Part shown: one piece after another, positions 770-29,954 of the stretch | Position numbering within the stretch: the first letter of the stretch is position 1 | Layout: each line of letters starts with the position of its first letter | IMG/VR virus record: IMGVR_UViG_3300035181_003098 | Span: 1 to 35,854 of that record | Reading direction: 5' to 3' (one strand) | Origin: a virus | Length of the DNA stretch: 35,854 bases | Notes under the pieces: generated by a model | The model's input: only the letters and a program-made list of their open reading frames with translations | The model's database searches: none | Told to the model about the DNA's origin: nothing | Position numbers and translations under genes: made by a program

Positions 770-1114
770 ATGTCACAATATACTGTTATTTATACCGCTG
801 GTGGTATTAATTCAACTGTTAATGGTTCTGTTTCAGAAATTACAACAGCGATGCGTAGCCGTTTTCAAGAACTGGCAAATGTAAGCCCAACTGTCGATGG
901 TGAAACAATTACTTTTACTGTTATGACTGGCTCTAAGGCTGCACAATACACTGTGGTTTATGTAGCTGGTGGCATCAATTCAACTGTTAATGGTTCTGTT
1001 TCAGAAATTACAACAGCGATGCGTAGCCGTTTTCAAGAACTGGCAAATGTAAGCCCAACTGTCAATGGTGAAATAATCACATTCACTGTTATGACTGGTT
1101 CTAAAGCCGTTTAA
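770..1114 (+). CDS. Tandem ubiquitin-like protein (PRTRC-C-like)
   Basis: I chose the ATG at 770 because it has an AAGG site a few bases upstream; the open frame itself begins at 725. The 114-residue product is two copies of a 56-residue unit (773-940 and 941-1108). Each unit has a beta strand (QYTVIYTAGG), a helix (SEITTAMRSRFQEL), a short turn and a final strand ending in TGSKA. This strand-helix-strand order and the Gly-Ser-Lys end resemble PRTRC system protein C, a 65-75 residue protein ending in GTKG. The adjacent E2-like, JAB and E1-like genes support a ubiquitin-like (beta-grasp) reading. Identity at the sequence level is weak, so the call rests on shape and context. A terminator follows directly. 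It could instead be an unrelated duplicated small protein. Confidence 0.55.
   Translation: MSQYTVIYTAGGINSTVNGSVSEITTAMRSRFQELANVSPTVDGETITFTVMTGSKAAQYTVVYVAGGINSTVNGSVSEITTAMRSRFQELANVSPTVNGEIITFTVMTGSKAV
773..1108 (+). repeat. Tandem 168-bp in-frame repeat (two units)
   Basis: Unit 1 is 773-940 and unit 2 is 941-1108. The central 87 nt (809-895 and 977-1063) are identical, while the flanks differ at many positions, including silent third positions. This pattern fits a duplication that diverged and was then homogenised in its centre by gene conversion. Confidence 0.95.
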
Positions 1115-1118
1115 TGAA

Positions 1119-1154
1119 AAAAGGGAACGTGTCATTAGATACGTTCCCTGTTTT
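1119..1154 (+). terminator. Intrinsic terminator after the ubiquitin-like gene
   Basis: An 8-bp perfect stem (GGGAACGT at 1123-1130 with ACGTTCCC at 1141-1148) has a 10-nt loop and is followed by TGTTTT. It begins 4 nt after the stop codon. It may uncouple the abundant small protein from the downstream enzyme genes. Confidence 0.75.
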
Positions 1155-1170
1155 CAGTGGAGGTGGACAG

Positions 1171-1449
1171 ATGGATAAAAATATTTATGAAAATACAGTA
1201 TTGTCTTTTATTGAATATTTTAACAAGAATGAGGGTGTTGAAAAGATTTATATAGAAGTTATGTCTCATAAAAATACTAGAGCACTATTTAAATCTAAGT
1301 CTTTATCTTCTGTTAATATTCTTGATCTATTAATAAAAGCAGAAGAAAGAGAAAAGGATGCCAAAAAAAGCAAAACTAGTGTAAAATTTTTAGAGGCTAA
1401 GATTTCTATTCTTTTTAATACTAATGTTTCTAATTCTAATTGGTTGTAA
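1171..1449 (+). CDS. Hypothetical protein in the ubiquitin-like cassette
   Basis: I chose ATG 1171 because GGAGGTGG lies just upstream (about 1159-1166); the longer frame from 1114 runs through the terminator and is unlikely to be translated. The 92-residue product is charged and mostly helical, with a lysine-rich stretch near residues 55-70 (AEEREKDAKKSK). I recognise no family. It lies between the ubiquitin-like gene and the E2-like gene, where a PRTRC accessory protein would be expected, but no similarity to PRTRC proteins D, E or F could be seen. Confidence 0.65.
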   Translation: MDKNIYENTVLSFIEYFNKNEGVEKIYIEVMSHKNTRALFKSKSLSSVNILDLLIKAEEREKDAKKSKTSVKFLEAKISILFNTNVSNSNWL

Positions 1450-1456
1450 AAAATAT

Positions 1457-2368
1457 ATGGAATATCTTGATTTCGCTATTGATTTTAATACTGGTCTAGT
1501 AATGTTGAAAAGAGATATTCTCAGTTCAGCAAATACAAGCGATGTTTCTCGTAAACTTTTTGAATCTTCTAAGATTGTGAATACAATTCCATTAAATACT
1601 TTCAATGATATTATTAGAAGGAGTATTGGGGCAACGTATTCCTCACCCATGCTTCCATATGGAACTGTTTTTTTTAAAGAAACAGAATCATATTTTTTAT
1701 TAGCATTAAAAGTTAAAGAATTTCCATTTAAGTTTTATCATACTAGCTATAAGAAGCTTGATGGTTGTACTGCATATTTTCCAGATTCTTATCTGCTTTT
1801 TGTTATTCCATCTTCTGCTTTATTAAATCCAGAAAAAGGAATTCCAATATCTAAAACCTATATTCTGGTTGAAGATAATCCTCTTAATTATTTTTCTATT
1901 GATAAGAATTATCTTTCTTCTCCTTTTCCTAATTTTGCTTCTGGTTATGGTACTGGAATTTGCTGGGGAGGTGGAGGCAGTTCCCAATATATTTGGAGTA
2001 AAAATATCGTTGATCTTAGAAGTCTTGAAACTGCTCCACATAAATATGTTAGTAGTAGTTTTAATAATGATCTAAGTCCAGAAATAAAACCATTAATTTT
2101 ATATGAAACAATTATTATATTTTTGACTTCTGATAAAGTGGCTTTTGATAGCTATAATGATTTTCTTAATTCTAAAGGGCTTTTAGGTGTAGAATGTGCT
2201 AAACTTAGTAAACCAGAAGATATTAAAGATTTAAGGTATTATCTTGTTCACTATTCTTTTTTGTGCTGGTATGGTGAGACTTATAAGTCATATCCATCTT
2301 TTACTTTTAGTTCATTACCTTCTTATGATTCTAGTGTCTCTAAAATCATTCAAAATCCACTTAGATAG
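1457..2368 (+). CDS. E2-like protein, PRTRC-B / Prok-E2 family D
   Basis: This 303-residue protein is counted from ATG 1457; the frame stays open back to 1424. The key segment is residues 153-175, with PFPN (156-159), a short Gly-rich spacer and ICWGGGG. This matches the PFxN...(V/I)CWGN signature of PRTRC system protein B, assigned to prokaryotic E2 family D, in which the Cys (here Cys169) is the proposed thioester-forming residue. Upstream features also fit: an LP..(V/T)FF strand near 66-75 and a strand ending PSSA near 118-123. A ..SSSFNNDLSP stretch after the motif corresponds to the family's FF.S.FTH region. The likely role is to receive the ubiquitin-like protein from an E1. The gene sits between the ubiquitin-like and JAB genes. 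That the Cys is active is inference. Confidence 0.72.
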   Translation: MEYLDFAIDFNTGLVMLKRDILSSANTSDVSRKLFESSKIVNTIPLNTFNDIIRRSIGATYSSPMLPYGTVFFKETESYFLLALKVKEFPFKFYHTSYKKLDGCTAYFPDSYLLFVIPSSALLNPEKGIPISKTYILVEDNPLNYFSIDKNYLSSPFPNFASGYGTGICWGGGGSSQYIWSKNIVDLRSLETAPHKYVSSSFNNDLSPEIKPLILYETIIIFLTSDKVAFDSYNDFLNSKGLLGVECAKLSKPEDIKDLRYYLVHYSFLCWYGETYKSYPSFTFSSLPSYDSSVSKIIQNPLR

Positions 2369-2380
2369 GATATAACATTT

Positions 2381-3562
2381 ATGTCTGATGATGTTTTTTC
2401 TCAGCTTTTTTCAAATAATTCTGAGCAAGTTAAAATTGGGGGTTTCCCTGATGGTGATTATTGTTTTGGTGTTTTTTCTAATGGTCTTTTTGAAAGAGAA
2501 AATGTTCCATTTATTGGTGAATTTATAACACTGAAAACACCAATAATGATTCCTTCTATTCCAGCTGGAGATAATTCTTTTACTCCTTCTTTTATTCATA
2601 TCCCTTGTGGAATTTTGATTGAAACTATTGAGTTTTATAGAAAGGTAATGAAAACAATAAAGTCAGAAGTTATGACTATGATTGTTTATGATACAGTTCT
2701 GAATGACTATAAAATTGTTGTTCCTGTTCAATCTGTTTCTGGTGCAACAGTTTCCTATAAACAGGTTCAATTTGGTGAACATGAAAAATACATTATGGCA
2801 TGTCACAGTCATGTTGACATGGATGCTTTTTTTTCTGGGACAGATAATAACGACGAAAAAAGAGCTATGTTATATGGGGTTATTGGTAAGCTATCTCAGC
2901 AAACTCCAGCAATGAAGTTTCGTGCTAAAAAAGGTAATATTGCTTCAGAGCTTCCAGTTGATATTGTCTTTGATTTTTCTGACAAAAGAAAATATTCTAT
3001 TCCTGAATGTGAAATTTTGAAAATTAGTCAAAGACAATATCATGCTCAAATTCAAACAGATTTTGCGCAAAGTTGGAATTATCGTAACCCTAATTCTCCA
3101 ACAACCGTTTATGATTATCGTAAAAAAATAGATAACAGTCTTTTAGATAAATATGAAGATGATGAAAATTATTTTTATCAAAATCCAGGATGGTATGGGT
3201 ATCAAGCGAATAAAAATGGTGGATTCTCAAAAAGAACAAAGGAACACAATGATATTGAGTTTCTTGACCCAGATGTAAGCATGGCTGTTGATGCCTTTGT
3301 TCGTGTGTATTCTGACTATGCTGAAAAGAATTTCACTTTAGAACTTAGCGAAGATGAAATTCAGGATTATTATCTTGAAGTTGCGAATAAACTTTGTGGT
3401 TTAATTGATTGTCTTGATGTTAACACTGATTTTCATGAAATGTTTGCAGAGATATATCTTGAAGGCAGTGCAGAATTTGTTGAGGAAGAAGATGATCAAA
3501 CATTGGAAGCTAAAGATAGAACTCCTCTTTCATTAATTGAATCTACAAAAGCGTTAATTTGA
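2381..3562 (+). CDS. JAB/JAMM-domain peptidase, PRTRC-A-like
   Basis: This 393-residue protein carries the zinc-peptidase signature CHSHVDMDAFFSGTD at residues 141-155, that is H142-x-H144-x10-D155. It is followed by NDEKRAMLYGVIGKL, which closely matches the PRTRC JAB/Mov34 proteins (HSH...FFSGTD..DE...YGVIG). A candidate catalytic Glu lies in the helix near residues 81-95. JAMM enzymes of this kind process ubiquitin-like precursors or remove conjugates. The N-terminus has a VFSQLFSNN segment resembling the DQLFG motifs of the protein encoded at 255-719. The C-terminal half (about 210-393) is acidic and unassigned. The gene starts 12 nt after the E2-like gene and ends 3 nt before the E1-like gene, so it is in the same operon. 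Confidence 0.8.
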   Translation: MSDDVFSQLFSNNSEQVKIGGFPDGDYCFGVFSNGLFERENVPFIGEFITLKTPIMIPSIPAGDNSFTPSFIHIPCGILIETIEFYRKVMKTIKSEVMTMIVYDTVLNDYKIVVPVQSVSGATVSYKQVQFGEHEKYIMACHSHVDMDAFFSGTDNNDEKRAMLYGVIGKLSQQTPAMKFRAKKGNIASELPVDIVFDFSDKRKYSIPECEILKISQRQYHAQIQTDFAQSWNYRNPNSPTTVYDYRKKIDNSLLDKYEDDENYFYQNPGWYGYQANKNGGFSKRTKEHNDIEFLDPDVSMAVDAFVRVYSDYAEKNFTLELSEDEIQDYYLEVANKLCGLIDCLDVNTDFHEMFAEIYLEGSAEFVEEEDDQTLEAKDRTPLSLIESTKALI

Positions 3563-3565
3563 AAT

Positions 3566-4636
3566 ATGAAAAATTTAGTAACAGAAAATGAGGTTCAGTT
3601 ATCTGAACTTCAAATAGCATTAGATAATGCTGATTTTAACTATCTCCTTTTAAATATTAAAGGAGGTTCATTCAAAAAAATATTGATAAAAGAACTAAAT
3701 TACCTGTTTAATCATGTTTCTTTAAAAAAACAGGACTTACCGCTGAATGATTTAGCCTTTAGATATAATTCTATTAATCTTTTTCTTGATTCTTTTACTA
3801 TGAGCTATTTTTTACAGCGAATTAAAAAGTCAAAAGAAATTAATAAAAGTCTTTATAACTTAATCCTTCTGGATGATCACGAAATTGTTTTTGATGATGT
3901 TTTATCTTCAAATTTTTCATTTGGTGATATCGGGAAAGAAGTTTCAGATGTTTTATCTTCAAGATATAGTGTTCCAATTACAAGCCTTTCCAGAAGTCTT
4001 TATTTTTCAAAAGATCTTTTTGCAATATTTTCTTCTGTTTCTACTATTGTAATTGATAAGAACTTTTCTGGTATCAACACAAAAGTAAATCATATTAATG
4101 ATTTATCAAGTTCAAGTTGTATTAATGCTGTTAATATTGTTTGTAGCTATGAGAATAGCTTACTTATTAATGCAGATAAGGTAGTTGATTTTGTTAATAA
4201 GCCATTGTCAATTATTGAATTCACAGGTTCTTCTACTAAAATTTATTTTAATAGCATAAAAAAAGAATTTAATACTGAATCTTTAACTAGATCGGAATTT
4301 TTTGAGAATTTTTTTCTGAATTTTTCAAACTTTATATCTGGAGACTTTTCTGAAAATAAAGATTTTTTAGAAGAAGATTTTTTAATTTCGTTGTCTATTC
4401 AAAAAAAAACTGACAATAAAATTATAAATATTGATTTTCAGACTTTAATGGTAATGGAGTATGTTAAAATTATTGAAAGTTCAATTGCTATTAATAAAAA
4501 TTTTATTGAAAATTCTATTTTTGAAAATGGAAATAGTTATGGAATTGGCTCTCGATATAAAAAATTTAGTAGTTATGATGCTTTTGATAGATTAACTAGA
4601 ATTCTTTTTCCTCTTCATTTTGTCCCTAGCATTTAA
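3566..4636 (+). CDS. Degenerate ThiF/E1-like protein (PRTRC-ThiF-like)
   Basis: This 356-residue protein is compared by eye with the PRTRC ThiF family. Residues 25-40 (NYLLLNIKGGSFKKIL) match the position of the nucleotide-binding strand and GxGGxGS loop. Residues 99-134 (LILLDDHEIVFDD, then VLSSNFSFGDIGKEVSDVLS) match the family's hDxDxVEexNxxRQxFxxxDxGxxKAexLaxRy segment. The fold is thus supported, but the first Gly of the loop and the Asn, Arg and Gln of NxxRQ, as well as the Lys of xKA, appear replaced. It is probably unable to adenylate, or does so by other residues. The C-terminal half is unassigned. It follows the JAB gene by 3 nt and precedes the reverse transcriptase by 15 nt. A weakly related fold is possible; a search by structure would decide. 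Confidence 0.55.
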   Translation: MKNLVTENEVQLSELQIALDNADFNYLLLNIKGGSFKKILIKELNYLFNHVSLKKQDLPLNDLAFRYNSINLFLDSFTMSYFLQRIKKSKEINKSLYNLILLDDHEIVFDDVLSSNFSFGDIGKEVSDVLSSRYSVPITSLSRSLYFSKDLFAIFSSVSTIVIDKNFSGINTKVNHINDLSSSSCINAVNIVCSYENSLLINADKVVDFVNKPLSIIEFTGSSTKIYFNSIKKEFNTESLTRSEFFENFFLNFSNFISGDFSENKDFLEEDFLISLSIQKKTDNKIINIDFQTLMVMEYVKIIESSIAINKNFIENSIFENGNSYGIGSRYKKFSSYDAFDRLTRILFPLHFVPSI

Positions 4637-4651
4637 AATTTTGGAGAAAAT

Positions 4652-6355
4652 ATGTTTGACAGTAATTATGGAGTTTCGCCTATTCGTAGTCGTAGGCAAT
4701 CAAGACTTATCAATTTAAATAAAAAATTTTTAGATCTTGATCAGTCATTATTTTTTAAAGACAGTTCGCTTAAGACCTATTTAGTTCATATTCTTCTTAG
4801 TTCTGTCAAATCTATTTTTGAAAATCGTTTTTCTTTTCCAGATTCTGCAAAAATATATATTGATCCAATATGCTCATTTTGTGAAAAAGAAAATATAACT
4901 AATCAGCTTTTTGTTATAACTGATGAGAACTTTAACCTTCTTTCAGAGTGTGTGAAAAATTTACACTCTAAATATATTTGGAATGTTCATAAGGTTGAAG
5001 CTAGAACTGTTTATTCTATTCCAGATAAATATGAGTTTATTAAGAATTCTCATTATTTATTAAAAAATATTAGAGATAAAATTCTTAAAGTTGAAGTTTT
5101 TAAATTTTTTGGAGTTAATAATAACTTTTTTAACTATGTCAATCCTAATACAAAGAAAGATATAAGAAGAAAAAGTAAATATTCTTTAAGTGAAAGATTT
5201 GATGGTAATTCAGTTAATACATCTAGACTTAATTCTGGCAAAATTATTGAAGGTGTAAAGTTTGATAGCTTACCAACTAGACTTGTTAATTATCTTAATC
5301 ATTATGAACTTAATTGCTCTTTTGGTGTCAAAAGAGGTGTACATGATGCCGTAAGAAGACATGAAAGACCAGATAATATGGTTGTTTTTGATATTTCTAA
5401 ATTCTTTAATACATTTAAAATTTCTAATATTGTAGATTATAAATTATTTGATAGGATTTATGAAATATTTGAATCTACTATTTTAAATACACCCTTTAGA
5501 GACAGAAAAAAATATAAAATTAATTATTCTTACAAAAAGGATTCCTATTACTTTTATAAAATAATTGATATGTTTTTTTATAATGGTGTTCTACCAACAG
5601 GTAGTGTTTTTGCTTCAGATCTTGTAAATCTTTTATTTTTCTCTGTAGATCATGGAATAGCGAAAGTTTTAGAGGATCATAATAATATGATTTCTTCTAA
5701 ATATCCATTTTTTAAAATGAGTGGAGGTTCATCGAAATTTTATGGTCTTGTATATACTAGATATATTGATGATATTTGTATAAGTACAGATTTTAATAAT
5801 TTGTCAAGAAAAAGACCCAATGGATTTTTTCCTTCCTCCAGTAATGAAAGTTCTGATATTGATTACCGGGATCTTTTTATTGGAATGCCAATTGTTAAAA
5901 ATATTGAAAAAATCCTTAACTCAAATGGATTTTATATCAAGTATGATAAGACAAAAATATATTCATATAAAATGGACAAAAAATATCTTGGTTTTAATTT
6001 CACAAGGAAAGATATTATTCGTAGAGGGCCTGGTGTAGTTTCTATCTATCCTTTTATTAAAAATAGTAGGTATATTATTTCTGCACCTTCTTCTGTTCGA
6101 TATGAATTTAATAAAAATTTTTATAATTTTTCATCTTTAAAAAAGGGAGAGCAAGATCGTGTAACTAGTCTTTTCCATTATTATTCTAATCCATTTTCTA
6201 GTAAAACATTTATGTTTACTACTATTCTAAATTCAGATGGAAAAACTGGATATGATCAGTTCAGAATAATTGAAAGACAAAAGAAAAAGAGGAGACCTGT
6301 TGTTGAGTTTTATAAACTTGATTCTGGTTCAAGAAAATTCTTTTTTAGGCAGTGA
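4652..6355 (+). CDS. Reverse transcriptase (YIDD type)
   Basis: This 567-residue protein starts at ATG behind GGAGA. The polymerase motifs appear in order: SFGVKRGVHDAVRRHE (223-238, RT motif 2), VVFDISKFFNTF (244-255, motif A with Asp247), GVLPTGSVFASDLVNLL (312-328, motif B, with the usual SPxL Pro replaced by Asp) and YTRYIDDICIS (368-378, motif C, catalytic Asp373/Asp374). GFYIKYDKTKIYS (motif D) and KKYLGFNF (motif E) follow. All catalytic aspartates are kept. About 200 residues precede motif 2 and 115 follow motif E, both unassigned. There is no room upstream for a retron RNA, and no template/variable repeat pair was seen, so the class is open (an unknown-group or abortive-infection type RT is possible). 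It appears cotranscribed with the E1-like gene. Confidence 0.9.
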   Translation: MFDSNYGVSPIRSRRQSRLINLNKKFLDLDQSLFFKDSSLKTYLVHILLSSVKSIFENRFSFPDSAKIYIDPICSFCEKENITNQLFVITDENFNLLSECVKNLHSKYIWNVHKVEARTVYSIPDKYEFIKNSHYLLKNIRDKILKVEVFKFFGVNNNFFNYVNPNTKKDIRRKSKYSLSERFDGNSVNTSRLNSGKIIEGVKFDSLPTRLVNYLNHYELNCSFGVKRGVHDAVRRHERPDNMVVFDISKFFNTFKISNIVDYKLFDRIYEIFESTILNTPFRDRKKYKINYSYKKDSYYFYKIIDMFFYNGVLPTGSVFASDLVNLLFFSVDHGIAKVLEDHNNMISSKYPFFKMSGGSSKFYGLVYTRYIDDICISTDFNNLSRKRPNGFFPSSSNESSDIDYRDLFIGMPIVKNIEKILNSNGFYIKYDKTKIYSYKMDKKYLGFNFTRKDIIRRGPGVVSIYPFIKNSRYIISAPSSVRYEFNKNFYNFSSLKKGEQDRVTSLFHYYSNPFSSKTFMFTTILNSDGKTGYDQFRIIERQKKKRRPVVEFYKLDSGSRKFFFRQ

Positions 6356-11295: not shown

Positions 11296-12733
11296 AGAAG
11301 TTTTGCTTGATGCTTATCTTGGAGAATATCTGATAAGAAAAGAGCAGAAAAAAATACACAAAATAAAAGATAATGCAAATAGTTTGCGTCAATCTCTTCG
11401 TAATTCAATTCTTTTTATTTATAAAAAATACATTGTTCCTAAAAAAGTTATAGTTCCTGATTTAGGTGAAAATGTAGATTTTATTTTTGAAAATCCATAT
11501 TTTGAAATAAATTTTAAAGCCTGTACTGAATTAAATAAAAATGATTATGATTTTTATTCTATTTCAGTTAGAGATAATATTTTTACAAAAATTGCTATTT
11601 CACTTTCATCACTAGTTCCTCCAGAGACTATTAAATGGAAATTTAGAGGAGATACTAATTGGTATTTTCCACATAAAAATTCTATTGGATTAAATTTTAT
11701 TTCTAGTGGTGGTGGATGGGATAATTCTTCTAGATATGCATTTTTTGGATTTAGTGCTTTGCTTGATGGGTACTACCCAATAATTGAAAAGATAATTCCT
11801 CTTCAGCTTAATGCTTCTCGTGTTTCTTATATTAATTCTGATAGTGTTAGTCTTAATGGTATAGTTGACTTTAAATATATGGCTAAAACTACTCATAATT
11901 GTCAGTCTCTTCCTGTCGATATGTCTAATTCTATTCCTTTTGTTGCTCCATCTGTTTTGATTAAAAATACTGTTAATAATCCAGATGTTGAATTAAAGGA
12001 AAAATTTACAGCAGAAATTTGTAATTTTATTTCTGGGGTATGTAAAGAAGAAAGAATTGAGATTATTTTAGGAGAAAAATATTTCAATTGTGTGTCTTTA
12101 GATACTAAATTTATGAATTTATCTTTTGAGATAGGTTTTGATGTCTCTTACTATGATTTTAAGTATACTAAAAGTATAATGAGGCTTGTTAAGGAATATA
12201 TTGATTTTTGTTTAATTTATGAATCACGTAAATCTTATAACATAATTGAGAATAAAGATCTTTTATCACTTCCTATCTTTAATGATTTATTTACTTTTGT
12301 ATTAAAAGTACTTCTTCCAAAAATAAAGAAGTGTCAAGTTGAATTTTATTCTTCTTATGCAAATGTTGATTTCACTACATTGGATTTTATGATTTTTACT
12401 TTTAATTCTATGGATTCAAATAATCCTGATTCTAGGATTAAAAAATTAGAATCTAGTGAATCTAATCTTTATACTGAAACAACTATTGATCATTCTTATA
12501 TATTTAAGGATAGAAAAAATGACGCTGTTTTATTTAAAAAGATTTATGGTGAAAATTTTGTGTACAATAATTGTTCTCATTGGACATACATTGGAGATAA
12601 AATTTCAGAGGGATTGACTCATAAACTTGAATTAAAAATTGATAATGAGAGTAGTGTTTTCACTATAAAGACTTTTCTTGAAACTTTATCAATTATAGAT
12701 GGAAATATTGTTCAAAATCCAGTTGGAGAATAA
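11279..12733 (+). CDS. Large hypothetical protein
   Basis: This 484-residue protein has a basic, coiled-coil-like N-terminus (about 15-40, RKEQKKIHKIKDNANSLR) followed by a long mixed alpha/beta region. The segment GGGWDNSSRYAFFGF near residue 142 is a Gly-rich turn. I recognise no family; the size, absence of enzyme motifs and N-terminal helix are compatible with a structural protein, but nothing proves it. It ends 7 nt before the primase-helicase gene. Confidence 0.7.
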   Translation: MALTSKEVLLDAYLGEYLIRKEQKKIHKIKDNANSLRQSLRNSILFIYKKYIVPKKVIVPDLGENVDFIFENPYFEINFKACTELNKNDYDFYSISVRDNIFTKIAISLSSLVPPETIKWKFRGDTNWYFPHKNSIGLNFISSGGGWDNSSRYAFFGFSALLDGYYPIIEKIIPLQLNASRVSYINSDSVSLNGIVDFKYMAKTTHNCQSLPVDMSNSIPFVAPSVLIKNTVNNPDVELKEKFTAEICNFISGVCKEERIEIILGEKYFNCVSLDTKFMNLSFEIGFDVSYYDFKYTKSIMRLVKEYIDFCLIYESRKSYNIIENKDLLSLPIFNDLFTFVLKVLLPKIKKCQVEFYSSYANVDFTTLDFMIFTFNSMDSNNPDSRIKKLESSESNLYTETTIDHSYIFKDRKNDAVLFKKIYGENFVYNNCSHWTYIGDKISEGLTHKLELKIDNESSVFTIKTFLETLSIIDGNIVQNPVGE

Positions 12734-12740
12734 AAAAATA

Positions 12741-15548
12741 ATGACAGTTAAAACTGAAATGATGGAAGATGCCATTAGAGAAATTAAAAAAAACCTAAAA
12801 GGTTATCTTGATCATGAAGGAGTTGAATCTCAAAATAATCGGTATTTATGTATTAATCCTGATCATGATGATACTCATCCTTCTGCTACAATTTTTACTG
12901 ATGATAATGGTGGACAACATTTAAAGTGTTGGTCGTGTTTGCCAGGACATGAAAATGTCCTGACTAATTTTGGATATAAAGAAATTTCTAAAATAGACAT
13001 TGGTGAAACTGTATTAGATTTAAATGGAAATTTTTCAAAAGTTACAAATAAAATCGAAACAAAAAATAAAGAATGTGATATATATAAAATTTCAACTTTT
13101 TCATATAATCATGGAATAGAAGTTACTGACGATCATAGAGTCTTTTGTCTTGACGATCTTACTTGTGATAAAAGTAAAACTAATTTTTTTTGTAATAAGG
13201 ATCAATGTTCATATTTTTTGAAAAAAAGATGTAATCCAAAAAAAATAAATTTAGAGATAAAAGTAGTTGAAGCTAAAGATTTAACCTTAAATCATATGCT
13301 TCTTACTCCTATTTATTCTCCTAAAAAAGAATATAATTTTGTTTTTCATGATAAAAATACTGTTTTTAGTTTTGAAGAGGACATGTATTGGCTTTTTGGT
13401 TTATACCTAGCAGAAGGAAGTACTTATGGTAAAAGAGTTGTTGAATTTTCACTTCATAAAAAAGAAATAGATTTTACTCATAAGATAATAGAAATATCAA
13501 AAAAATATTTTAATGCAAATTGTTCAATTAAGAAAAAAGACTCTTCAAATGGAATTGCTATCAGAGTTCACTCTTCCATTTTTTTTAGACTTATTTCAAG
13601 TATTTTTAGTGGAGTATGTGATACTAAAAGTATTCCTTTTGATTTTGTTGATTTGAATTTCAATAATAAAAAATCCTTTATTCAAGGTATTTTTGATGGT
13701 GATGCTTGTAAGGCAAGTGGATGTTTAACTCTTACTAATTCAAATATAGTAAAATATTGTCATGATGCATTATTAACATTTGAAATTATTTCTTCATATT
13801 CTGAAAATGACTCTTATATTTCTATGGATGGTATTGAAAGAAAAAAAACATATTCTATTAATCCTATAGGTATAAATATTTTTGATTTTTTTAAAACTGG
13901 GATTGTAAATTACACTTATACAAATCACAAATCTTTTTTTGTCACTATTTCTGGAGTAAGATATTTAGCTTCTGGAATATCTAATATTGATATTTCCAAA
14001 AATAAATATTCTTCTGTTTTTGATATAACAGTAGATGGCTCCAAATCATTTGTAACAAAAGGGTTTGTAGTTCATAACTGTAGCGCGACTTATGATGTTT
14101 TTGCTGCTGCTCATATTTTGTCTAATAAACCTGTATCTGGAACTGGATTCTTTACGGAAACAGTTCCTTATCTTGCTGAAATGTTTGGTGTTACCATACC
14201 AGAATATTCAATAACAGACAGAGAAAGAGATGAAATTATGTTGTATAGACTTTATCGTGATGCAGCTAATTATATAATTTCTTATTCTGAAGATGCTATT
14301 CCAGATAATGTGATGCATGAGCTTGTTAAGAGGAATTGGCTTGACATAAAAAAGATTAAGAATCTTGGTGTTGGATATGTTGTATCCTATGATCATTTTA
14401 GGTCCCATTTAAGGTCTATGGGGCATACAGTCAAAAGTATTGAAGAATCTGGTTTATCTGATCCATATCTTTTTAATGAACGTAGACTGATATTTACATA
14501 TAATGATGAACATGGTAGACCTGTTGGATTCATTGGGCGTAATTTGGATTATGACGGAATTAAAGATCCTGAAACACATCAGTATCATAAAGGTCCAAAA
14601 TATGTTTTTAATAAGACTCCTTCTATAGGAATTAAGCTTCTTAAAAAGGAGCAACGTTTATACCTGTTTGACAAGGCAAGAAAGAGTGAGGCTCCAACCT
14701 TATTTATAGTTGAAGGTCAACCTGATAGTATTTCTTTCCATTATAGTGGACATGACAACTTTGTTTCTTTGTCTGGAACATCTATGACATTAGAGCATTT
14801 TGAACTTCTAAGGCGTTATGGAATTTATGATGTAGTCATATGCCTAGATAATGATTCACCAGGACAGAAGGCTGCAGAATCTCTTATTGATACCATCTTG
14901 AAACACGTTAATGATATACGTGTAAGGTTTATGTTTTTGCCAATGGTTAATGGTGAAAAAATAGATCCAGATCTTATGGCTAGAGATGGTAGATCTAGTG
15001 AGTTTTTTGATTTACCTAAAGTTTCTCCTTTTGACTTTACATTAACTAAAATAGTAACAGAATTTGAAGATTCTGATCCTGAATTTATTTGTAATAAAGT
15101 TCTTCCAATTATTGTATCTGACCCTTCTTCAATAAGAAGGGAAACAATGGTTTCTATGTTGTCATCTGTAACAGGAATAAGTGAAAGAGCTTTAAAGGAT
15201 GAATTAAAAAGACTTTTAGAAAATAAAGATCAAAAAGTAATAAAACTTAAGAAGGATATTGTTGATCGTCTTTCTCATAAAATTGGCAATACTGACTCTA
15301 CTAATGAGGTTGAAGCATTACTTTCTGAAACTCTTGAAAGTTTTAGACAGATTGATAAGGAGGCTTCTTCTGAAACTCTTGAGCCAAAAACATTGCTTGG
15401 TAATCTTCTTGAAATAAAAAGATATGAAGAAGGAGATGCTTTAATTGACTATATTAAAGTTGATCCTAATCTTGAAATATTCATGAAGACAATTGAGGGA
15501 GACCTTAGTCAGAAAATGATCCTAATTCCAGCGCAACCCAATGTAGGT
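12741..15548 (+). CDS. Primase-helicase (DnaG-DnaB fusion), exon 1 with intein
   Basis: This exon encodes 936 residues including a 381-residue intein. The extein begins with a CHC2-type zinc finger (Cys37, His42, Cys63 and, after protein splicing, the +1 Cys). It continues with the TOPRIM domain (TLFIVEGQPDS with its Glu and VVICLDNDSPG with DxD). A linker then leads to the start of a RecA-type helicase domain, ending inside Walker A (AQPNVG). The reading frame continues 28 codons into the intron and stops at 15632. Joined to 16006-16848 the extein is about 836 residues. The protein would lay primers and unwind DNA at the phage fork with the DnaE-type polymerase. The start ATG 12741 follows GGAG by 12 nt; ATG 12759 is an alternative. 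Confidence 0.88.
12936..14078 (+). mobile_element. Intein in the primase zinc finger, with LAGLIDADG domain
   Basis: This 381-residue intein starts at Cys (CLPGHENVLTNFGYKEI, block A) and has block B as VTDDHRVFC (TxxH-like). Two LAGLIDADG motifs are visible, LFGLYLAEGS and IQGIFDGDA. It ends SFVTKGFVVHN followed by Cys+1 (block F/G). Excision joins CWS to CSATYDVF and restores the zinc finger's second CxxC. All splicing residues (Cys1, block-B His, His-Asn, Cys+1) are present, so it should be active, and the endonuclease looks intact. Confidence 0.92.
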
Positions 15549-16005
15549 GGTTGCTTTTTATGTATAATTCTATTTGATATTGTGTTTTGCCGGTATCAAA
15601 TTATTTCTATACATAATATAAAAAGGCAATAACTGCCCACTCATAAAGTAACTTATGAGTGCACACTCCGACTAATTGCGGGAATACCTTATAGCTTCAA
15701 ATACTACTTATAGATGGTGACATACTATAATACCGTTAGAGTAATAATTCATAACGGCATAGTGAAAATTTTGAAGATTGGTAAATCGGCGCAGCAAAGC
15801 TTCTTTATAAGAAGTGAGTTCAACGACTAGTAAATCCTATATTGTGCAGTAGGTCTAGAGCCAAGTGGTGCCAGTAGGCTTAAATCGAAACGTTGGAGGC
15901 CCTATCAGCTTGTCTGAGGGTTGATATATAGTCTGGTCTATATGGAAACATATAGTCGCGCATAAAGGCGCACAGAATGATTAACGAACCTTCTGGAACA
16001 TAACG
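15549..16005 (+). mobile_element. Group I intron 1 (primase-helicase), no endonuclease
   Basis: This is a 457-nt intron without a gene. Core elements in order are P (AATTGCGGGAA, about 15675), Q (AATCGGCGCAGC, about 15785), R (GTTCAACGACTA, about 15820) and S (GATATAGTCTG, about 15926). They are followed by a P9 hairpin with GAAA tetraloop (CTATATG/CATATAG). The 5' splice site is placed after T15548 and the 3' site after G16005. This joins GGT to AAA ACT and rebuilds Walker A as NVGKTT. A 5' site after T15551 (NVGGKTT) is possible. P1 pairing is weak (AGGT with GCTT). Confidence 0.87.
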
Positions 16006-17942: not shown

Positions 17943-19679
17943 GTGGATACTTATACTCCCCTGCACGTTCATTCTATTTATTCCCAACTTGATGGGTTTA
18001 GTAAAATTGAAGATATTGTAGACCGAGCTATTGAAACTGGTGCACATGGTGTATGTATTACTGATCATGCATATGCTACCTCTCATTATCAACTTGGTGA
18101 AATTTGTGTCAAAAAAAATATTAAACCAATTTTCGCAGTAGAAGGATATTTATCTCCTAGAGATAATACTATCCATGAAAAAATTGATGGTTTCAAAGAT
18201 TATTATCATATAACTCTTATTGCTAAAAATCCTATAGGGTATTCAAACTTAATGAAGCTTATTGCCGATAGTTTCTTACTAGGGAAGTATCGTAAGCCTC
18301 GTTTTGATATGAATAAGCTAGAGCAGTGGTCTAATGGAATTATCTGTCTTACGGCTTGTCTCGGTGGAGTGGTATCACAGATGCTTGCAAATAATAGAGA
18401 TGAAGAGGCTGAAACATGGATGTCTAATCTTAAAGATATTTATGGCGAAAATGTTTTTGCTGAATTAACCTGGACAGGGTTAGAAGAGCAAGACAAGGTT
18501 AATATAAAAATGATAGCTTTAGCTGAAAAGCTAAATGTAAAAATTGTTATAACTCCAGATAGTCATTATTCTAAAGCTTCAGATTCTGATTTTCATAAAG
18601 CAATGGTGTGTATTAATGTTGGGCAGTCTTTTGTTCCTACTGGCAAAGAAAAAGATGGAGATGATGTTGATGAATCTGGAATGTTCTATCAGCCAGAACA
18701 ATACTGGATCAAAGACAGGCAAACCTTGATCGATCAGTACTATCATAAATTTGAAAATCATAATGAATATTTTGAGAATACAAATGATATTGCTGATTCT
18801 ATAGAATGGATAAAGTTTAATAAAGAAAAGAAATTTCCATGTGATTATTCTAATCCAGATGAAGAGCTAATGAATAGAATTATTATTTCTTTAAATGAAA
18901 AAATTGAATCTGGAATTCTTAATTCTGAGCATATTGATATTTATACTTCAAGATTAAAAGAAGAGCTTGATACAATTATTAAAATGGGTTTTTCTGATTA
19001 CTTTATTGAGATTCAAAATATTGTTAAGTGGGCCAATGATGCTGGAATAACAACAGGGCCTGGACGTGGATGTTTTTATAATAGTACTCCTATTCTTTGC
19101 AGGGATAAATATCGCCTAATTAAAGATATTAAACCTGGAATGGAAGTTTATACTTCACAGCATAAGTATGAAAAAGTAATTGCTCTTTTATCTTATGAAG
19201 TGGAAGAAAGTCTTACTTGTATTGAATATAAAAGTTTTGACAATATTTTCTATAGAATATTTGGAACTACTGATCATAAACACTTAGTGGTTCCTAAATC
19301 CACTACTCCAGTCAAAGACTTTTCATCTGATAGAAATGAAATTGCTCCAATTGAAAGTGTTCCATTTTTTCTTGAATCATCACTTATTAGTGAATCATCA
19401 CATTGTCTTGTTGGTAGTAATTTTAATAGACAGGATCCTAAATTTGAAAAAATTTATATTTCTACTGTTTATGAAACACCAATTATTAAGACTAAGGTTT
19501 ATGATTTAATGGTAGAAGGAAATAATACTTTTATGGTAGGAAATCATTTTGTACATAATTCTGGAGCTGGAAGTTTTATTAATTTTGTTTTGGATATTAC
19601 CCGTGTAAACCCATTAACTTACGGATTGCTATTTTCTCGTATGTTAAATAGTGGTCGTAGTGCTTTTCCTGTTATTGAT
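17943..19679 (+). CDS. dnaE: DNA polymerase III alpha subunit (DnaE type), exon 1
   Basis: This exon encodes 579 residues, 163 of them intein. The GTG start lies 8 nt behind GGAGG. The PHP domain is clear: PLHVHS (His8, His10) and ITDHAYA (Asp41, His42), and further HxH/DSHYS metal ligands at about 200. The palm begins after residue 370 with GPGRG...SGAGS (interrupted by the intein). VNPLTYGLLFSRMLN follows, then PVID. The frame stops five codons past the proposed splice site. The Asp at 19677-19679 joined to VDLDFN of exon 2 gives DVDLDF, the catalytic DxDxDF motif. No 3'-5' exonuclease domain is inserted, so this is DnaE rather than PolC. It is the replicative polymerase of the phage. Confidence 0.9.
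19071..19559 (+). mobile_element. Mini-intein in DnaE (GPGRG/SGAGS site)
   Basis: This 163-residue intein starts at Cys (CFYNSTPILCRDKYRLIKD), with block B GTTDHKHLVV and end NNTFMVGNHFVHN before Ser+1. Excision joins GPGRG to SGAGS, the universal polymerase III palm loop. No endonuclease domain is present, so it can splice but not home by itself. Confidence 0.93.
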
Positions 19680-19700
19680 GATATTTTGGAATAATTATTT

Positions 19701-20420
19701 ATGTTAAATAGAACTGAAAAATATACTCATGAATTCAATTTGAATAATGAGGATATTATAATTGAATTGTTTGTTGAAAAAAATGAAGCTGGTAATGTTA
19801 TTTCCTGGAATTTTTTTATTAATAATATAGAAGAAATGAGTCTTGATAGCGTGAGAGAATATGAAAATGCATTTATCTCACTTCTACTTAATATTTTTCC
19901 AGCTTTACTGTCTAAAAGTGAAAATATTGAATGGCTTACTGTTGGAGGTGCGGATTATCAACTTCAAAAATATCAATGTATTGGTAGAAATAACAACAAT
20001 CTAATTGTTGATCCTTTGTGCGGTAAATTAAAATACCTTTTTGGCATTATTGATCCTGAAGTAGCAAAGCTTAACATATGTAATGAAATTCCATTAAAAT
20101 TTTCAGATTATTTTACTCAATATTTTCCAAATGGTCCTTCTAGAATTTTTGATATATCTGTTATTGATGTATCTGATTATGATGGATTTTCTGGATTTGA
20201 TTCTCCGAAAGAAGCTTATACTGAAGATTTTTATAAACAAATTTGTTCAATAACTAAAATTGGTGGATATATTATAGCCTATGAAGGTACACCTGATACT
20301 TTATCTCAGTTGTCCAATGAAGTGTCTCCTCTTGTCCATATTGATGGATTAAAACTAATTAAAAGGGTCTCTTGTGGTTATGGCTATGGCTTTATGAGTT
20401 CATGGGAAGTCATATCATGA
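19701..20420 (+). CDS. Spermidine synthase-like (polyamine aminopropyltransferase fold)
   Basis: This 239-residue protein has a class I methyltransferase-like layout typical of spermidine synthases. It begins with a beta-rich N-terminal part (1-70), then IEWLTVGGADYQLQKY (76-91, the GGGDG-type loop) and NLIVDP (100-105, acidic end of strand 2). DISVIDVSDYDGF (151-163, equivalent to the catalytic VDxxDP segment), EDFYKQICSITKIGGYIIA and an EGTP loop follow. Key glycines are fewer than in canonical SpeE, so the substrate is uncertain. It has only a weak ribosome binding site (GGAATAATT) and lies 22 nt past the dnaE exon 1 end. It overlaps the next gene by 4 nt. Confidence 0.55.
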   Translation: MLNRTEKYTHEFNLNNEDIIIELFVEKNEAGNVISWNFFINNIEEMSLDSVREYENAFISLLLNIFPALLSKSENIEWLTVGGADYQLQKYQCIGRNNNNLIVDPLCGKLKYLFGIIDPEVAKLNICNEIPLKFSDYFTQYFPNGPSRIFDISVIDVSDYDGFSGFDSPKEAYTEDFYKQICSITKIGGYIIAYEGTPDTLSQLSNEVSPLVHIDGLKLIKRVSCGYGYGFMSSWEVIS

Positions 20421-20698
20421 TAAAAATTGAGGATATTACTCCGGCTAAAAGTAGACTGAGACTTTTAGTTGATAGTCTTTCAGATAACCCTTTCTATATT
20501 AACAATCGCTCTTCTATATATGATGAGTTAGGTATTATTGAGATTCATAATCTTGATGAACAATTGATTTTAATCAAAGAGTCTGGGCTTATTAAGAATA
20601 CTAATAATGGTAATTCATATGTTTCTTATCTTCTTGGAGTGACTACGGTTGCTCCAAGTGGACCACTTGTAAAAAAAGGTGGTTCATTGCCGGATTAA
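20417..20698 (+). CDS. Hypothetical small protein
   Basis: This 93-residue protein starts at an ATG overlapping the previous stop (ATGA) behind GGGAAG. It begins MIKIEDITPAKSRLRLLVDS; a helix follows and the last 20 residues are Gly/Pro/Ser-rich and probably flexible. I recognise no family. It is apparently cotranslated with the spermidine-synthase-like protein, which suggests a shared role. It shows none of the residues of S-adenosylmethionine decarboxylase. Confidence 0.6.
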   Translation: MIKIEDITPAKSRLRLLVDSLSDNPFYINNRSSIYDELGIIEIHNLDEQLILIKESGLIKNTNNGNSYVSYLLGVTTVAPSGPLVKKGGSLPD

Positions 20699-20702
20699 TT
20701 GA

Positions 20703-20733
20703 TTGACAAAATATTTTAAAGTGTAAGTATACT
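20703..20733 (+). promoter_or_regulatory. Possible sigma70-type promoter before HEG
   Basis: TTGACA at 20703-20708 and TATACT at 20728-20733 are separated by 19 bp, longer than the usual 17. It lies 35 nt before the TTG start of the LAGLIDADG gene, with AGGAGG in between, so that gene may be transcribed on its own. Confidence 0.35.
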
Positions 20734-20767
20734 AATGGAAGGAATATAACCATAGGAGGACTTTACT

Positions 20768-21553
20768 TTGAATGAAATAATTTTAGAACAATATGATAAT
20801 GGCTTATCTATCTCTGAGATAGCCAGAGCTAATAATACTACAAACTATTTGGTTAGAAAATTTTTGACTAGCAATAGTAGAGAAATAAGGACTAATGCTT
20901 TTAATTCAAGACGTTATAATCTTGATGATAGTAAATTTAATGCAATAGACACAGAAGAAAAGGCGTATTGGCTTGGATTCTTATATGCCGATGGGTGTGT
21001 TCATGATTCAAGCAATGATATTTCTTTATCTTTATCTGTTGTTGATATCGGTCATTTGGAAAAATTTAGAATTTTTCTTAGTACAGATAGACCAATTAGG
21101 ACTTATTCTAAAAAGGTTGGAGCCGATTACTCGAAATTAATTGCTACATCTTCTCAGATGAAAAGTGCTTTGATTTCGTTAGGTTGTGGTATTAATAAAA
21201 CTACTATTTTAACTTTTCCAGAAATTAGGGAAGATCTTATCTTTCATTTTATTCGTGGATACTTTGATGGTGATGGAAGTATAACTTACGTCTCAACTCA
21301 AAATGAATATAAGTTTAGAATATGTGGAACTTATGAATTTTTATCATCAGTAAAAAATATACTAAATATTAATAATCCATTGCGCCAACGTTGGCCTGAT
21401 AGAGAAATTAATAATTGGGAGATTGATATTGGTGGTAATATTCAGGTTTATAAAAAGTTAAAATTATTATATGAAAATTCTACTATTTATTTAGATAGAA
21501 AGTTCGAGAGATTTTGTCAGTTACGGTCCCTTCATATTGAAAGATATGAATGA
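20768..21553 (+). CDS. LAGLIDADG homing endonuclease (intron 2)
   Basis: This 261-residue protein starts at TTG behind AGGAGG. The N-terminus is a helix-turn-helix (LSISEIARANNTTNYLVRKF, 13-32). Two LAGLIDADG motifs follow: YWLGFLYADG (about 68-77) and IRGYFDGDGS (about 159-168). The single chain therefore carries both catalytic Asp residues. Its likely job is to cut intron-less dnaE near the catalytic-Asp codons and so spread intron 2. It lies upstream of the ribozyme core, unlike the endonucleases of introns 3 and 4, which lie downstream. Confidence 0.88.
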   Translation: MNEIILEQYDNGLSISEIARANNTTNYLVRKFLTSNSREIRTNAFNSRRYNLDDSKFNAIDTEEKAYWLGFLYADGCVHDSSNDISLSLSVVDIGHLEKFRIFLSTDRPIRTYSKKVGADYSKLIATSSQMKSALISLGCGINKTTILTFPEIREDLIFHFIRGYFDGDGSITYVSTQNEYKFRICGTYEFLSSVKNILNINNPLRQRWPDREINNWEIDIGGNIQVYKKLKLLYENSTIYLDRKFERFCQLRSLHIERYE

Positions 21554-21811
21554 TAACCCTGTGAATTCAGTGGATAACTCTACGGAGTCAATACTGAGCC
21601 AAGCCTATGTAAATAATCATAGGAAGGTGCAACGACTATTGCTATGGTGGCAGTAGATCTCAAGAGAGATCGAAGCGCAGGGGGCCTTGTGGTTCGTTTT
21701 AGAACTATGTGGCTATGATATAGTCTGGTCTGTATGGCGACATGCAGCAGTTAAAGTGTTAGGCATTACATTTTAGCGGGGAAAGGTTTTCGTCCTTTCT
21801 TGAACAAAACG
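21554..21811 (+). ncRNA. Group I ribozyme core of intron 2
   Basis: The core elements are AATTCAGTGG (P), ACTC-TACG-GAGT (P5 hairpin), AATACTGAGCCAAGCC (Q; CAGT/ACTG make P4), GTGCAACGACTAT (R) and GATATAGTCTGG (S; P7 pairs CGACTA with TAGTC). A P9 hairpin with GCGA tetraloop (CTGTATG/CATGCAG) and a last hairpin GAAAGG/CCTTTC precede terminal G21811. The Q element is of the GAGCCAAGCC kind and differs from the other four introns here, so this ribozyme has a separate origin. Confidence 0.85.
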
Positions 21812-23212
21812 GTAGATTTAGATTTCAATGCTAAACGTCGTGATGAAGTTTTTGCTCATCTTTATGATAAATACAAAAATGGATTTGCACACATTGGTAC
21901 TCATGGAACTTTGCAGGCCAAGAATGCTTTTAAAGATGTATGTCGCATTTTTAATGTTCCATTTCAAGAAGCCAACACTTTGTCTTCTTTAATTCCTGAT
22001 GGGTCTGAAAGTATTGAAGACGCTCTTAAGGATGAAAAGTTTAGTTCTAAAATAAATGCAGATGAAAATCTCAAAGATGTAGTGAGATATTCTAAAGCTT
22101 TGGAAGGAACTATAAAAAGTTATGGTTGTCATGCATGTTTAAAATATGATCAAAAGATATTTGCAAATGGTAAATTCATTAGTCTTGAAAAAGCTTATGA
22201 TAAATACTATAAAAATACAGATAAAAAAGATCCTATTAAAGTAAGAACTATTAATGGTGATAAGTTTGGTTTAATTCATCAAAGTGGTAGAAAAAATTCT
22301 TACAATGTATATCTATATGCAGAAGATGAGAGGACTATCATTAGTGAAGTTGAACTTAGTTCTGAACATAAAATTCTTATTGACGGAAGGTATATTCCCT
22401 ATAGGGATTTAAGAGAGAATACTTATTATGAACATAATATTTCAAATACTGTTCCAAATTCTATTACTGGATATTTTATTTCTGGTTTCTTGCTTCCTTT
22501 GCTTTCTAATAATATTATTGCTGGTTCATGTGATTGGGTTATTAGTAGTGAAACCATTAATCTTATCTTTGATTCACTTGAAGCGTTTTATGTTGGTGGA
22601 CACTCAGAGTTCAAAGAAGAATGGAAAAAAAATATAAATAATCCAAAAAAGATTTTAAGTAAAATAGAATCAATATTGGGAATAACTAATTGTAATGGAG
22701 TTATACTTCAGGCAATAAATTATAATGATATTTTATTTTCAGAAATCTTAGAGCGTACTGATTTTTTTTCTGGCTTAATTTCTTCTTCTAGGAAAATTTC
22801 AAGCTATTCTTATGGTCACAAAAATGTAGTTTCAAGTTCTATTGCAAAACAATTTAATTTTGAATTTAAAAAATTTGGAATGACTTTTAAATCATCTTCT
22901 TTAGAATTTAGTTCTGCTGATTTAATAAGATTTTTAACATATAATGATTGTATTCTATTTTTTATTGATCTTCCAAAAACATATATTTTTAAGGGATCAA
23001 AAACAGAGCAGAATGCTGTTAGGATGTATGATGTTCAAATTTTAACAGATAATCCAGATAATCAAAATTTTATTTGTAGTGGTATTTCTGTTTCCAACTG
23101 TGGAGTTCTATTATCTCCAGTTCCACTTAATGAAACAATTCCTCTGTTTGCAGTTAATGGATTGCCTACGACAATGTATGATGGCGAAACGTGCGAGAAA
23201 TTAAAATTCATT
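21812..23212 (+). CDS. dnaE: DNA polymerase III alpha subunit, exon 2 with intein
   Basis: This exon encodes 467 residues, 321 of them intein. It starts VDLDFNAKRRDEVFAHLYDKY, completing the catalytic acidic motif and matching DnaE (xDxDFxxxxRDEV). It continues GFAHIGTHGTLQAKNAFKDV and, around the intein, ALEGTIKSYGCHA joined to CGVLLSPVPL (DnaE xxxHAxGVVIxP). It ends TTMYDGETCEKLKFI at T23212, with an in-frame TAA directly after. The TTG at 21800 is inside the intron's terminal hairpin and is not a real start. Confidence 0.9.
22136..23098 (+). mobile_element. Intein in DnaE (HA/CGV site), endonuclease degenerate or absent
   Basis: This 321-residue intein starts CLKYDQKIFANGKFISLEKA, has block B VELSSEHKILID and ends with VRMYDVQILT, then NFICSGISVSN before Cys+1. 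The C-terminus is Ser-Asn rather than His-Asn, which several functional inteins share. About 150 residues between blocks B and F have the size of an endonuclease domain, but no LAGLIDADG or HNH motif is readable (TGYFISGFLLPLLSN is a possible eroded copy). Confidence 0.88.
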
Positions 23213-23521
23213 TAAATTTGGATGAAGTAAAATCGGGAAAATTGCGGGAACCCCCTTAGAGTTCTAACTACTACTTGTAAGTGGAAACATATTACAAAAC
23301 CTTGACCGTAATTGTGGTAAAAAGGCATAGTGAAAATGTTAGAAATTGGGAAATCGGCGCAGCTAGTCTTCTAAATCTATTTATATAGACATGAAGAGTG
23401 TTCAACGAGTAGGTGAGTTACACCAGCTTACATGTAGTAATATGTGTAGGTGCCCCCGACATGAGTTGTATAACAACTCTAAAGATGTACTCTGAACTGT
23501 GAAGAAATTTACAGAAAAAGG

Positions 23522-23551
23522 TTGAAATGCCTTTTCTTTTATCTCTATAAT
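23522..23551 (+). promoter_or_regulatory. Possible sigma70-type promoter inside intron 3
   Basis: TTGAAA at 23522-23527 and TATAAT at 23546-23551 with an 18-bp spacer lie about 50 nt before the ATG of the intron endonuclease. They would allow its expression apart from the polymerase transcript. Confidence 0.45.
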
Positions 23552-23603
23552 AGACCTATAGATTCAAATTTAATATTAAACAAGATTCGGTAGGAGTTAT
23601 AGA

Positions 23604-24509
23604 ATGCCTAAAGAAAATTTACTTAACACTTCCTCTTATGATGAAGTAAAACAATTAATTATAGAAAATTGGCCAATTACAAGTGTTGTATTTTGCAAAA
23701 AGTATAAAACTAGTCACAATTATTTAACCCGTATTTCCTCTGGAAAAACATGGAATCAAATAGTTGTTGACTGTTCTCTTACACCAAATATTCAAACATC
23801 TTCTATTTACAATGAAGAGGACATATTAAAAGACATAAAAAGAATTCATGATATTTATGGTTCTGTAGGTAGTACCACTTATAGAAAACTTGGTATGTTT
23901 TCTCAAAAAACTATTGAAGATAAGTATGGTTCTTATTCTAATGCTCTTATTCAAGCTGGATTTAGATCAAGGATGATTTCAAGAGATATGTCTAATGCGG
24001 ATATGATTGAAGAAGGCAAAATAATAGTAGAAAAATATGATAGGATTGATTCAAAAATTATTACAGAAAGATGTAATTTTTCTGTTCCTACTATAATTTC
24101 TAGATTTGGTTCTTGCTCAAATTTTTATAATGAAATTGGTTATGTAAATAATCACCGAAACTCAAATGAAGGACTGGATGTTTTGTCTATTATTTCTGAA
24201 ATTTTAAATTCAGAATGTATTAAAGAAAAAACATTCAATGATTTAGTTGGTATTGGTGGTAAAAAACTTTATTATGATGGGTTTTTTGAATCCCACAACT
24301 TACTTGTAGAGTACAATGGTATTCAGCATTATACTTTTATAAGCAAGTATCATAGTGATAAAATTTCATTAGCACATCAAGTTGCTAATGATAATTTAAA
24401 AATGGCTTATGCTATCAATAGTGGCTTTAATTTTATTGCTATTCCTTATGGGTGCAATGATTTTGATTCAATTAGGTATATTATTGATAGCATGATAAAT
24501 GTAACATAG
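23604..24509 (+). CDS. PD-(D/E)XK-like homing endonuclease (intron 3)
   Basis: This 301-residue protein starts at ATG behind TAGGAG. The N-terminal 190 residues are DNA-binding repeats of the homing-endonuclease-associated kind. FSQKTIEDKYGSYSNALIQA and FSVPTIISRFGSCSNFYNEI are two clear copies of the (K/R)FGSxxxAxxxxG motif. The C-terminal domain (about 205-301) has YYDGFFESHNLLVEYNGIQH, giving Asp and Glu. HQVANDNLKMAYAINSGFNF, with the conserved Asp/Lys helix, and a final strand FIAIPYG follow, as in EDxHD/Vsr-like endonucleases. The core resembles the protein at 7528-8082. Its stop codon is 3 nt before the intron end. Confidence 0.75.
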   Translation: MPKENLLNTSSYDEVKQLIIENWPITSVVFCKKYKTSHNYLTRISSGKTWNQIVVDCSLTPNIQTSSIYNEEDILKDIKRIHDIYGSVGSTTYRKLGMFSQKTIEDKYGSYSNALIQAGFRSRMISRDMSNADMIEEGKIIVEKYDRIDSKIITERCNFSVPTIISRFGSCSNFYNEIGYVNNHRNSNEGLDVLSIISEILNSECIKEKTFNDLVGIGGKKLYYDGFFESHNLLVEYNGIQHYTFISKYHSDKISLAHQVANDNLKMAYAINSGFNFIAIPYGCNDFDSIRYIIDSMINVT

Positions 24510-24512
24510 TTG

Positions 24513-29883: not shown

Positions 29884-29954
29884 GTATATCTTTTATGTTT
29901 AGTCATCGTAATTAGAGTTTTAGAAACTTGGAAAAAGCTTTAGGAGAATGGTAT

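Follow-up and report, generated by a model that had tools for sequence, protein, structure and literature searches.

A phage form of the PRTRC ubiquitin-like cassette with a tandem ubiquitin-like protein and a probable pseudo-E1

Introduction

In plasmids and bacterial genomes, the PRTRC cassette brings together four families in the order C - B - A - ThiF, for which the reference families are PRTRC_A, PRTRC_B, PRTRC_C and PRTRC_ThiF in NCBIfam and Prok-JAB, Prok-E2_D, Prok_Ub and ThiF in Pfam. Here, a locus with the same four families in the same order is described from an IMG/VR virus record (IMGVR_UViG_3300035181_003098), an incomplete genome fragment of 35,854 bases with 29% GC, which was analysed over its whole length and is called the window. 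The locus is identified as a PRTRC ubiquitin-like modification cassette in phage form. It differs from the known cassette in having a probable pseudo-E1 and a ubiquitin-like protein (Ubl) with an SKA tail, and PRTRC ParB and PRTRC_D are absent both from the window and from the large cassette-bearing phages. A phage PRTRC cassette that lacks partition genes and has a tandem Ubl and a pseudo-E1 appears to be new.

Other described systems share parts of this set. Bacteria are known to have PRTRC-like and polyUbl operons, and the polyUbl operons in row 6e of Iyer et al. 2006 have two to three tandem Ubls, a JAB, an E1 and an E2-like fold; in these, the E2-like domain is inactive and the JAB is fused to the E1 (PMC1779556). 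In the window, by contrast, the E2 retains its cysteine, the JAB is separate and the degenerate part is the E1. Bil (BilABCD) also has a Ubl, E1, E2 and JAB, and its BilD combines one inactive with one active adenylation domain (PMC11354881), but Bil is a host defence whereas the window locus lies on a virus record. A PADLOC scan gave no Bil match in the window; the presence of Bil models in its library was not checked. The gpI and gpK proteins of phage lambda are likewise a Ubl and JAB pair, although they come without E1 or E2 and are tail-tip proteins with an NlpC/P60 domain, a domain not found in the window JAB protein in Pfam and NCBIfam scans.

A description of the phage cassette was not found in the open literature, which leaves out the majority of subscription journals and does not cover bioRxiv as a separate library. 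PRTRC is mentioned there in 26 papers, and none of those listed deals with phages. One overview of jumbo phages is without mention of ubiquitin and another without JAB, ThiF or Ubl. The sole pointers are automatic annotations in phages ME3 and KLEB27-3, including an ME3 cassette gene annotated as "PRTRC system protein A".

Assignment of the Ubl, E2 and JAB proteins

The cassette is a run of intact + strand open reading frames for a tandem Ubl, a small protein, an E2-like protein, a JAB and a 356-residue protein in the E1 slot (Table 1). An initial annotation of the window had seen four consecutive genes here; the four reading frames are present, and an extra small gene lies between those of the Ubl and E2. 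Direct database scans strongly support the JAB alone, so the caution with which that annotation treated its E1 and Ubl calls was well placed. A convincing direct family match for the E2, Ubl and E1-slot proteins was absent from Pfam, NCBIfam and PADLOC-type scans, and related sequences were therefore required for family assignment. With these, the Ubl, E2 and JAB encoded in positions 770-3562 are all assigned to PRTRC families, which agrees with the Ubl, E2 and JAB calls made initially.

Table 1. Features of the cassette and their positions in the window
Feature	Positions	Strand	Details
Tandem ubiquitin-like protein (Ubl x2, 114 residues, PRTRC_C/Prok_Ub type)	770..1114	+	AAGGA about 8 nucleotides before ATG 770
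Ubl domain 1	770..940	+	tail ...MTGSKA, then A58; tail aligned to [TA]G[TN]KG tails elsewhere in the family
Ubl domain 2	941..1108	+	tail ...MTGSKA, then V114, one residue past the aligned tail
Hairpin with terminator character, 3' of Ubl stop	1112..1165	+	stem 1122-1149, then TGTTTTC
Small cassette protein between Ubl and E2, about 92 residues	1171..1449	+	ends NSNWL; GGAGGT precedes ATG 1171
E2-like protein, PRTRC_B/Prok-E2_D type, 303 residues	1457..2368	+	Cys169, codon 1961-1963
JAB/JAMM metallopeptidase, PRTRC_A type, 393 residues	2381..3562	+	E96 2666-2668, HSH 2804-2812, D155 2843-2845
Probable pseudo-E1 in ThiF/E1 slot, 356 residues	3566..4636	+	starts 3 nucleotides past JAB stop
E1-derived block, residues 72-136	3779..3973	+	nine conserved E1 positions all substituted

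The JAB protein matches NCBIfam PRTRC_A (TIGR03735) at E=1.1e-17, with 64 bits being under the curated cut-off of 101.8, and Pfam Prok-JAB at E=2.9e-6. Its JAMM site is complete (E96, HSH142-144, S152 and D155), and the motif residues are kept in 82-83 of 85 relatives. The JAB gene of ME3 is broken at the JAMM motif (L004:8932-12042): its first part ends VVVMDIH and extra genes separate the halves, an arrangement such as a homing element would produce.

The E2 was recognised with a phage E2 profile made without the window, which matches the reading frame 1424-2368 (start probably at 1457) at E=8.6e-13. Other members of this phage family match Pfam Prok-E2_D and NCBIfam PRTRC_B. The initial link to these two profiles holds through such relatives and not directly, as no family match below E=0.1 was found for the window protein itself. 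The catalytic cysteine is kept in the window and in 78/78 other alignment rows. For an AlphaFold2 (AF2) model with a predicted local distance difference test (pLDDT) score of 70, the ten best VIA-align rows are UBC E2s (Z 5.4 to 4.8), a ranking that weakly backs the E2 identity, a Z of 5.4 being too low to rule out an arrangement by chance. Foldseek gave no significant match with the same model (best E 0.3), and tblastn of the window E2 against phage records gave none. The window lies on a long branch in the E2 tree; its pairing with ME3 there was rejected as an unsupported meeting of two long branches.

The tandem Ubl

The Ubl profile, also made without the window, matches the whole protein at E=1e-15 and the two domains separately at 1e-7 and 5e-7. 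Two members of the profile, from loci L005 and L057, pass the PRTRC_C and Prok_Ub cut-offs, and the window protein is assigned via this profile. Two points go beyond the initial annotation: the Ubl is doubled, and the cassette recurs in dozens of large phages, part of which encode a poly-Ubl.

The two domains are 93% identical in amino acids and 90% in nucleotides, with a ratio of nonsynonymous to synonymous change (dN/dS) of 0.13 between them (P=2.9e-4). In L005 and L057, protein-identical Ubl copies share just 75-83% DNA identity and the silent sites are near saturation. Each Ubl unit is under purifying selection individually. This is the pattern that would be expected if every unit were released and worked alone. 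Eukaryotic polyubiquitin genes have the same pattern of conserved amino acids and diverged silent sites between copies.

The number of tandem copies per phage gene ranges from 1 to 6, with three in D69, four in KLEB27-3, five in L026 and six in L057. A poly-Ubl is encoded by 11/62 distinct viral genes versus 1/30 bacterial ones (P=0.09, not significant); it was dropped as a phage hallmark because the comparison with bacterial loci shows a mere trend. Nearly all relatives have a GxKG motif, either at the C-terminus or ahead of another Ubl or of an extension. The exceptions are the window (GSKA) and ME3 (GNKA). The Ubl of phage Arash has 66 residues and ends TGTKG, in another reading frame than the annotated gp251 (L002:107-307).

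The stop codon of the window Ubl gene is followed by a 12-bp hairpin (minimum free energy -25.1 kcal/mol, z=-6.2). A strict terminator follows 26/62 distinct viral Ubl genes versus 7/310 random places, and it is shared with the bacterial PRTRC cassette, where it follows 9/30 Ubl genes versus 2/150 random places. These terminators suggest that the Ubl is dosed apart from its enzymes, as would fit an overproduced tag.

The E1 slot

The last gene of the cassette had been called a ThiF/E1. That call stands as to the origin of one block of the protein; as to a working enzyme it probably does not. The E1 profile finds the product just at E=9.4 in hmmsearch, and there is no match to PF00899 anywhere in the window. 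In hhalign, residues 72-136 align to the nucleotide-binding part of E1 with a score of 35.4, which is reached by 0/400 shuffles (maximum 26.2) and 0/327 control reading frames (maximum 34.2, which is close). In blastp over the reading frames of the loci, residues 60-134 match the ME3 ThiF (28% over 82 residues, E=0.002). The alignments indicate that the protein shares ancestry with the E1/ThiF adenylation domain, as is demonstrable for residues 72-136 only.

Within this block, G74, G76, G77, G79, D105, N111, R114, Q115 and K126 are replaced, all at positions where 37 other phage E1s show no or almost no variation; D103, F117, G123, L130 and R133 are kept. The substitutions take in the glycine-rich loop, the R-Q pair and the lysine of the nucleotide site. 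An alternative alignment places two of the loop glycines at 33-34 and leaves the other losses unchanged. Because the alignable part has lost its nucleotide-binding residues, the protein is probably not a working E1.

An AF2 model has a pLDDT of 60 overall and 75-95 over residues 71-160, and the best structural matches of this core are all of the E1/ThiF family (VIA-align Z up to 13.9). The model is not independent evidence, as its alignment consisted of intact E1s. Past residue 136, a significant alignment of the C-terminal half to E1s was not obtained, and residue equivalence there is too insecure for a claim about the catalytic cysteine. A proposed loss of the E1 catalytic cysteine and aspartate was not upheld, since the alignments disagree outside residues 72-136.

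Distribution in phages and missing partition genes

Searching with the JAB by tblastn gave matches in Vibrio phage D69 and its kin, Salmonella phage Arash, Acinetobacter phage ME3, Bacillus phage KLEB27-3 and a faecal contig. Each of the named phages has an E2-like gene before the JAB gene and a ThiF gene after it. An IMG/VR scan with a JAB profile gave 78 loci, some of them near-duplicates and many on contigs of 140-280 kb. The cassette is thus recognised as widespread in large phages, namely in Arash, D69, ME3, KLEB27-3 and dozens of IMG/VR contigs, with the conserved order Ubl - small gene(s) - E2 - JAB - E1. Iterated profiles find the E2 in 79/84 loci and the E1 in 78/84, and a bacterial genome scan gave 50 loci with an E1 in 50/50. 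Among loci with both E2 and JAB, a recognisable E1 is missing only from the window and from L033 and L040, and these last two are cut off by a contig end just after the JAB. A ThiF domain is present in 22/23 cassette records surveyed: exactly one in 21, two in one and zero in the window. The record with two (L054, record G016; positions 177621 and 158390) is a candidate carrier of a two-subunit E1.

ME3 (vB_AbaM_ME3) is the closest named phage found. Like the window it has a Ubl, E2, JAB and ThiF, but its Ubl is single, its ThiF is intact and its JAB gene is split. No close relative came up when IMG/VR was scanned singly with the window JAB, Ubl or E1-slot protein, and a scan with the ME3 ThiF matched ME3 alone.

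ParB and actin-like partners had not been seen initially, and the survey bears this out. PRTRC ParB is absent from the window fragment and present in 1/30 records, on a 49-kb contig; PRTRC_D, the actin-like protein, is also absent from the fragment and present in 1/30 records, on a 69-kb contig. In the large phages with the cassette, the corresponding profiles TIGR03734 and TIGR03739 find no match. A role in genome partition thereby loses its main support and was set aside.

The small gene

The reading frame before the E2 gene spans 1114-1449, and its true start is probably ATG 1171, because GGAGGT precedes this codon and the hairpin fills 1122-1149. A gene of similar size is found in the same place in most phage relatives. 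Many of these end [FYW][ILV], which could be a candidate docking tail; examples are L010:5835-6152, L055:5594-5851 and L057:2904-3455, among others. PRTRC_F is not recognisable among the genes lying between Ubl and E2 in the relatives.

Proposed function and alternatives

The most likely function is that the E2 attaches the JAB-processed Ubl to proteins during infection. The JAB would process the tandem Ubl by cleavage at the ...G-S-K-A tails, and the terminator after the Ubl gene would damp the downstream enzyme genes and so leave the Ubl in excess. The E2 would then transfer the Ubl onto phage or host proteins, and the JAB could undo the transfer. The pseudo-E1 by itself would be unable to activate the tag in the known way; by analogy to SAE1 and APPBP1, the inactive adenylation subunits of eukaryotic E1s, it would most likely be retained as a platform for binding or as the inactive half of a pair, and an active E1 would come from the unsequenced remainder of the genome or from the host. 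The whole explanation, with Ubl conjugation, platform and outside E1 together, is given a probability of about 0.5. In its favour are the family assignments, the conserved gene order, the ThiF domain in nearly all cassette records surveyed, the retained active-site residues of the E2 and JAB, the purifying selection on each Ubl copy, the terminators after Ubl genes and the GxKG tails of nearly all relatives.

Several points weigh against it. The window tail reads ...SKA instead of ...TKG, so that the C-terminal glycine itself is gone, as it is in ME3 (NKA). An intact E1 is absent from the 35.9-kb fragment, and a second E1 elsewhere in this phage would be unusual, since nearly all phages of the family carry one ThiF. 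In this phage, tag activation must come from elsewhere or have been abandoned. Conjugation is deduced from sequence and not from an observed conjugate, activity or target, and the platform or two-subunit idea comes by analogy alone. In a very improbable variant, the pathway would be free of E1: the energy of the peptide bond between the Ubls would be used by the JAB and E2 to transfer the released unit, with the former E1 as scaffold.

The degenerate E1 slot beside a retained JAB and Ubl would also suit a module that does not conjugate, in which JAB cleavage of the Ubl times an assembly step and the E2 and pseudo-E1 act as binders. There is a precedent in lambda, where, according to a conference summary, gpK (a JAB) cuts the Ubl domain from gpI in the tail tip (PMC12908700). 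A PAAR spike gene is located about 6 kb from the cassette in both Arash and D69, the Arash ThiF and E2 are labelled "structural protein" in GenBank, and Gp246-249 and Gp251 were detected in purified Arash particles (Table 2 of PMC10585845; numbering in paper and record may differ by one). These products point weakly, from one relative, to an association of the cassette with virions; 116 proteins were detected in the particles, many enzymes among them, so that carry-over is possible. Tail genes were not recognised near the window cassette, and the whole family, the window included, has the E2 cysteine, which a role without conjugation would not require. An assembly module of this kind is unlikely.

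Two further explanations are less probable still. In one, the cassette is a decaying remnant that lost its E1 and is being eliminated, as the missing E1 residues and tail glycine and the long E2 branch would allow; yet every reading frame is intact, the pseudo-E1 still at its full 356 residues, the E2 and JAB sites are complete and the Ubl copies are under purifying selection, which makes decay improbable. In the other, about equally improbable, the JAB, with the Ubl, E2 and pseudo-E1 as decoys, strips or poisons a host conjugation of the Bil or PRTRC type. Host Bil attaches its Ubl and so disturbs phage assembly (Hor et al. 2024, as outlined in PMC12660748), and an inactive E1 whose binding surfaces are intact could be dominant negative. 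However, most phages of the family keep an intact E1, so that the cassette generally looks capable of conjugation, and purifying selection on each Ubl copy suits a used tag over a decoy.

With conjugation as the preferred reading, large phages appear to own ubiquitin-like tagging systems, some with strongly selected polyubiquitin-like precursors. The cultured phages Arash, D69, ME3 and KLEB27-3 would make PRTRC function directly testable. The window suggests that the E1 can degenerate while the other parts stay intact, and so probes the minimal needs of the system.

Neighbouring genes

The recognisable neighbours of the cassette in the window are replication and nucleotide-metabolism genes; tRNA genes were not found across its 35,854 bases. 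Just upstream of the Ubl, a 154-residue protein (255-719) has five [DN]QLF[GC] motifs, and one QLF occurs in the JAB N-terminus too. Directly after the pseudo-E1, and 15 nucleotides past the end of its gene, begins a reverse transcriptase gene (4652-6355, 567 residues, RVT_1 at 3.6e-7, YIDD motif) with GGAG upstream; tblastn found no relative of it in 50,697 phage records.

Group I introns (Rfam RF00028) occur at two places, 15616-15955 and 24628-24981, and adjoin interrupted primase-like and DnaE genes. By eye, intein-like inserts are seen in the primase-like gene (12699-15632) and in DnaE (17943-27795), and DnaE is also split by homing-endonuclease-like genes at 20768, 23604 and 24993. The protein of 28134-29072 has ME3 as its only relative among phage records. 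The product of 29928-30395 resembles, by eye, a macro-domain protein and is possibly related to ADP-ribose.

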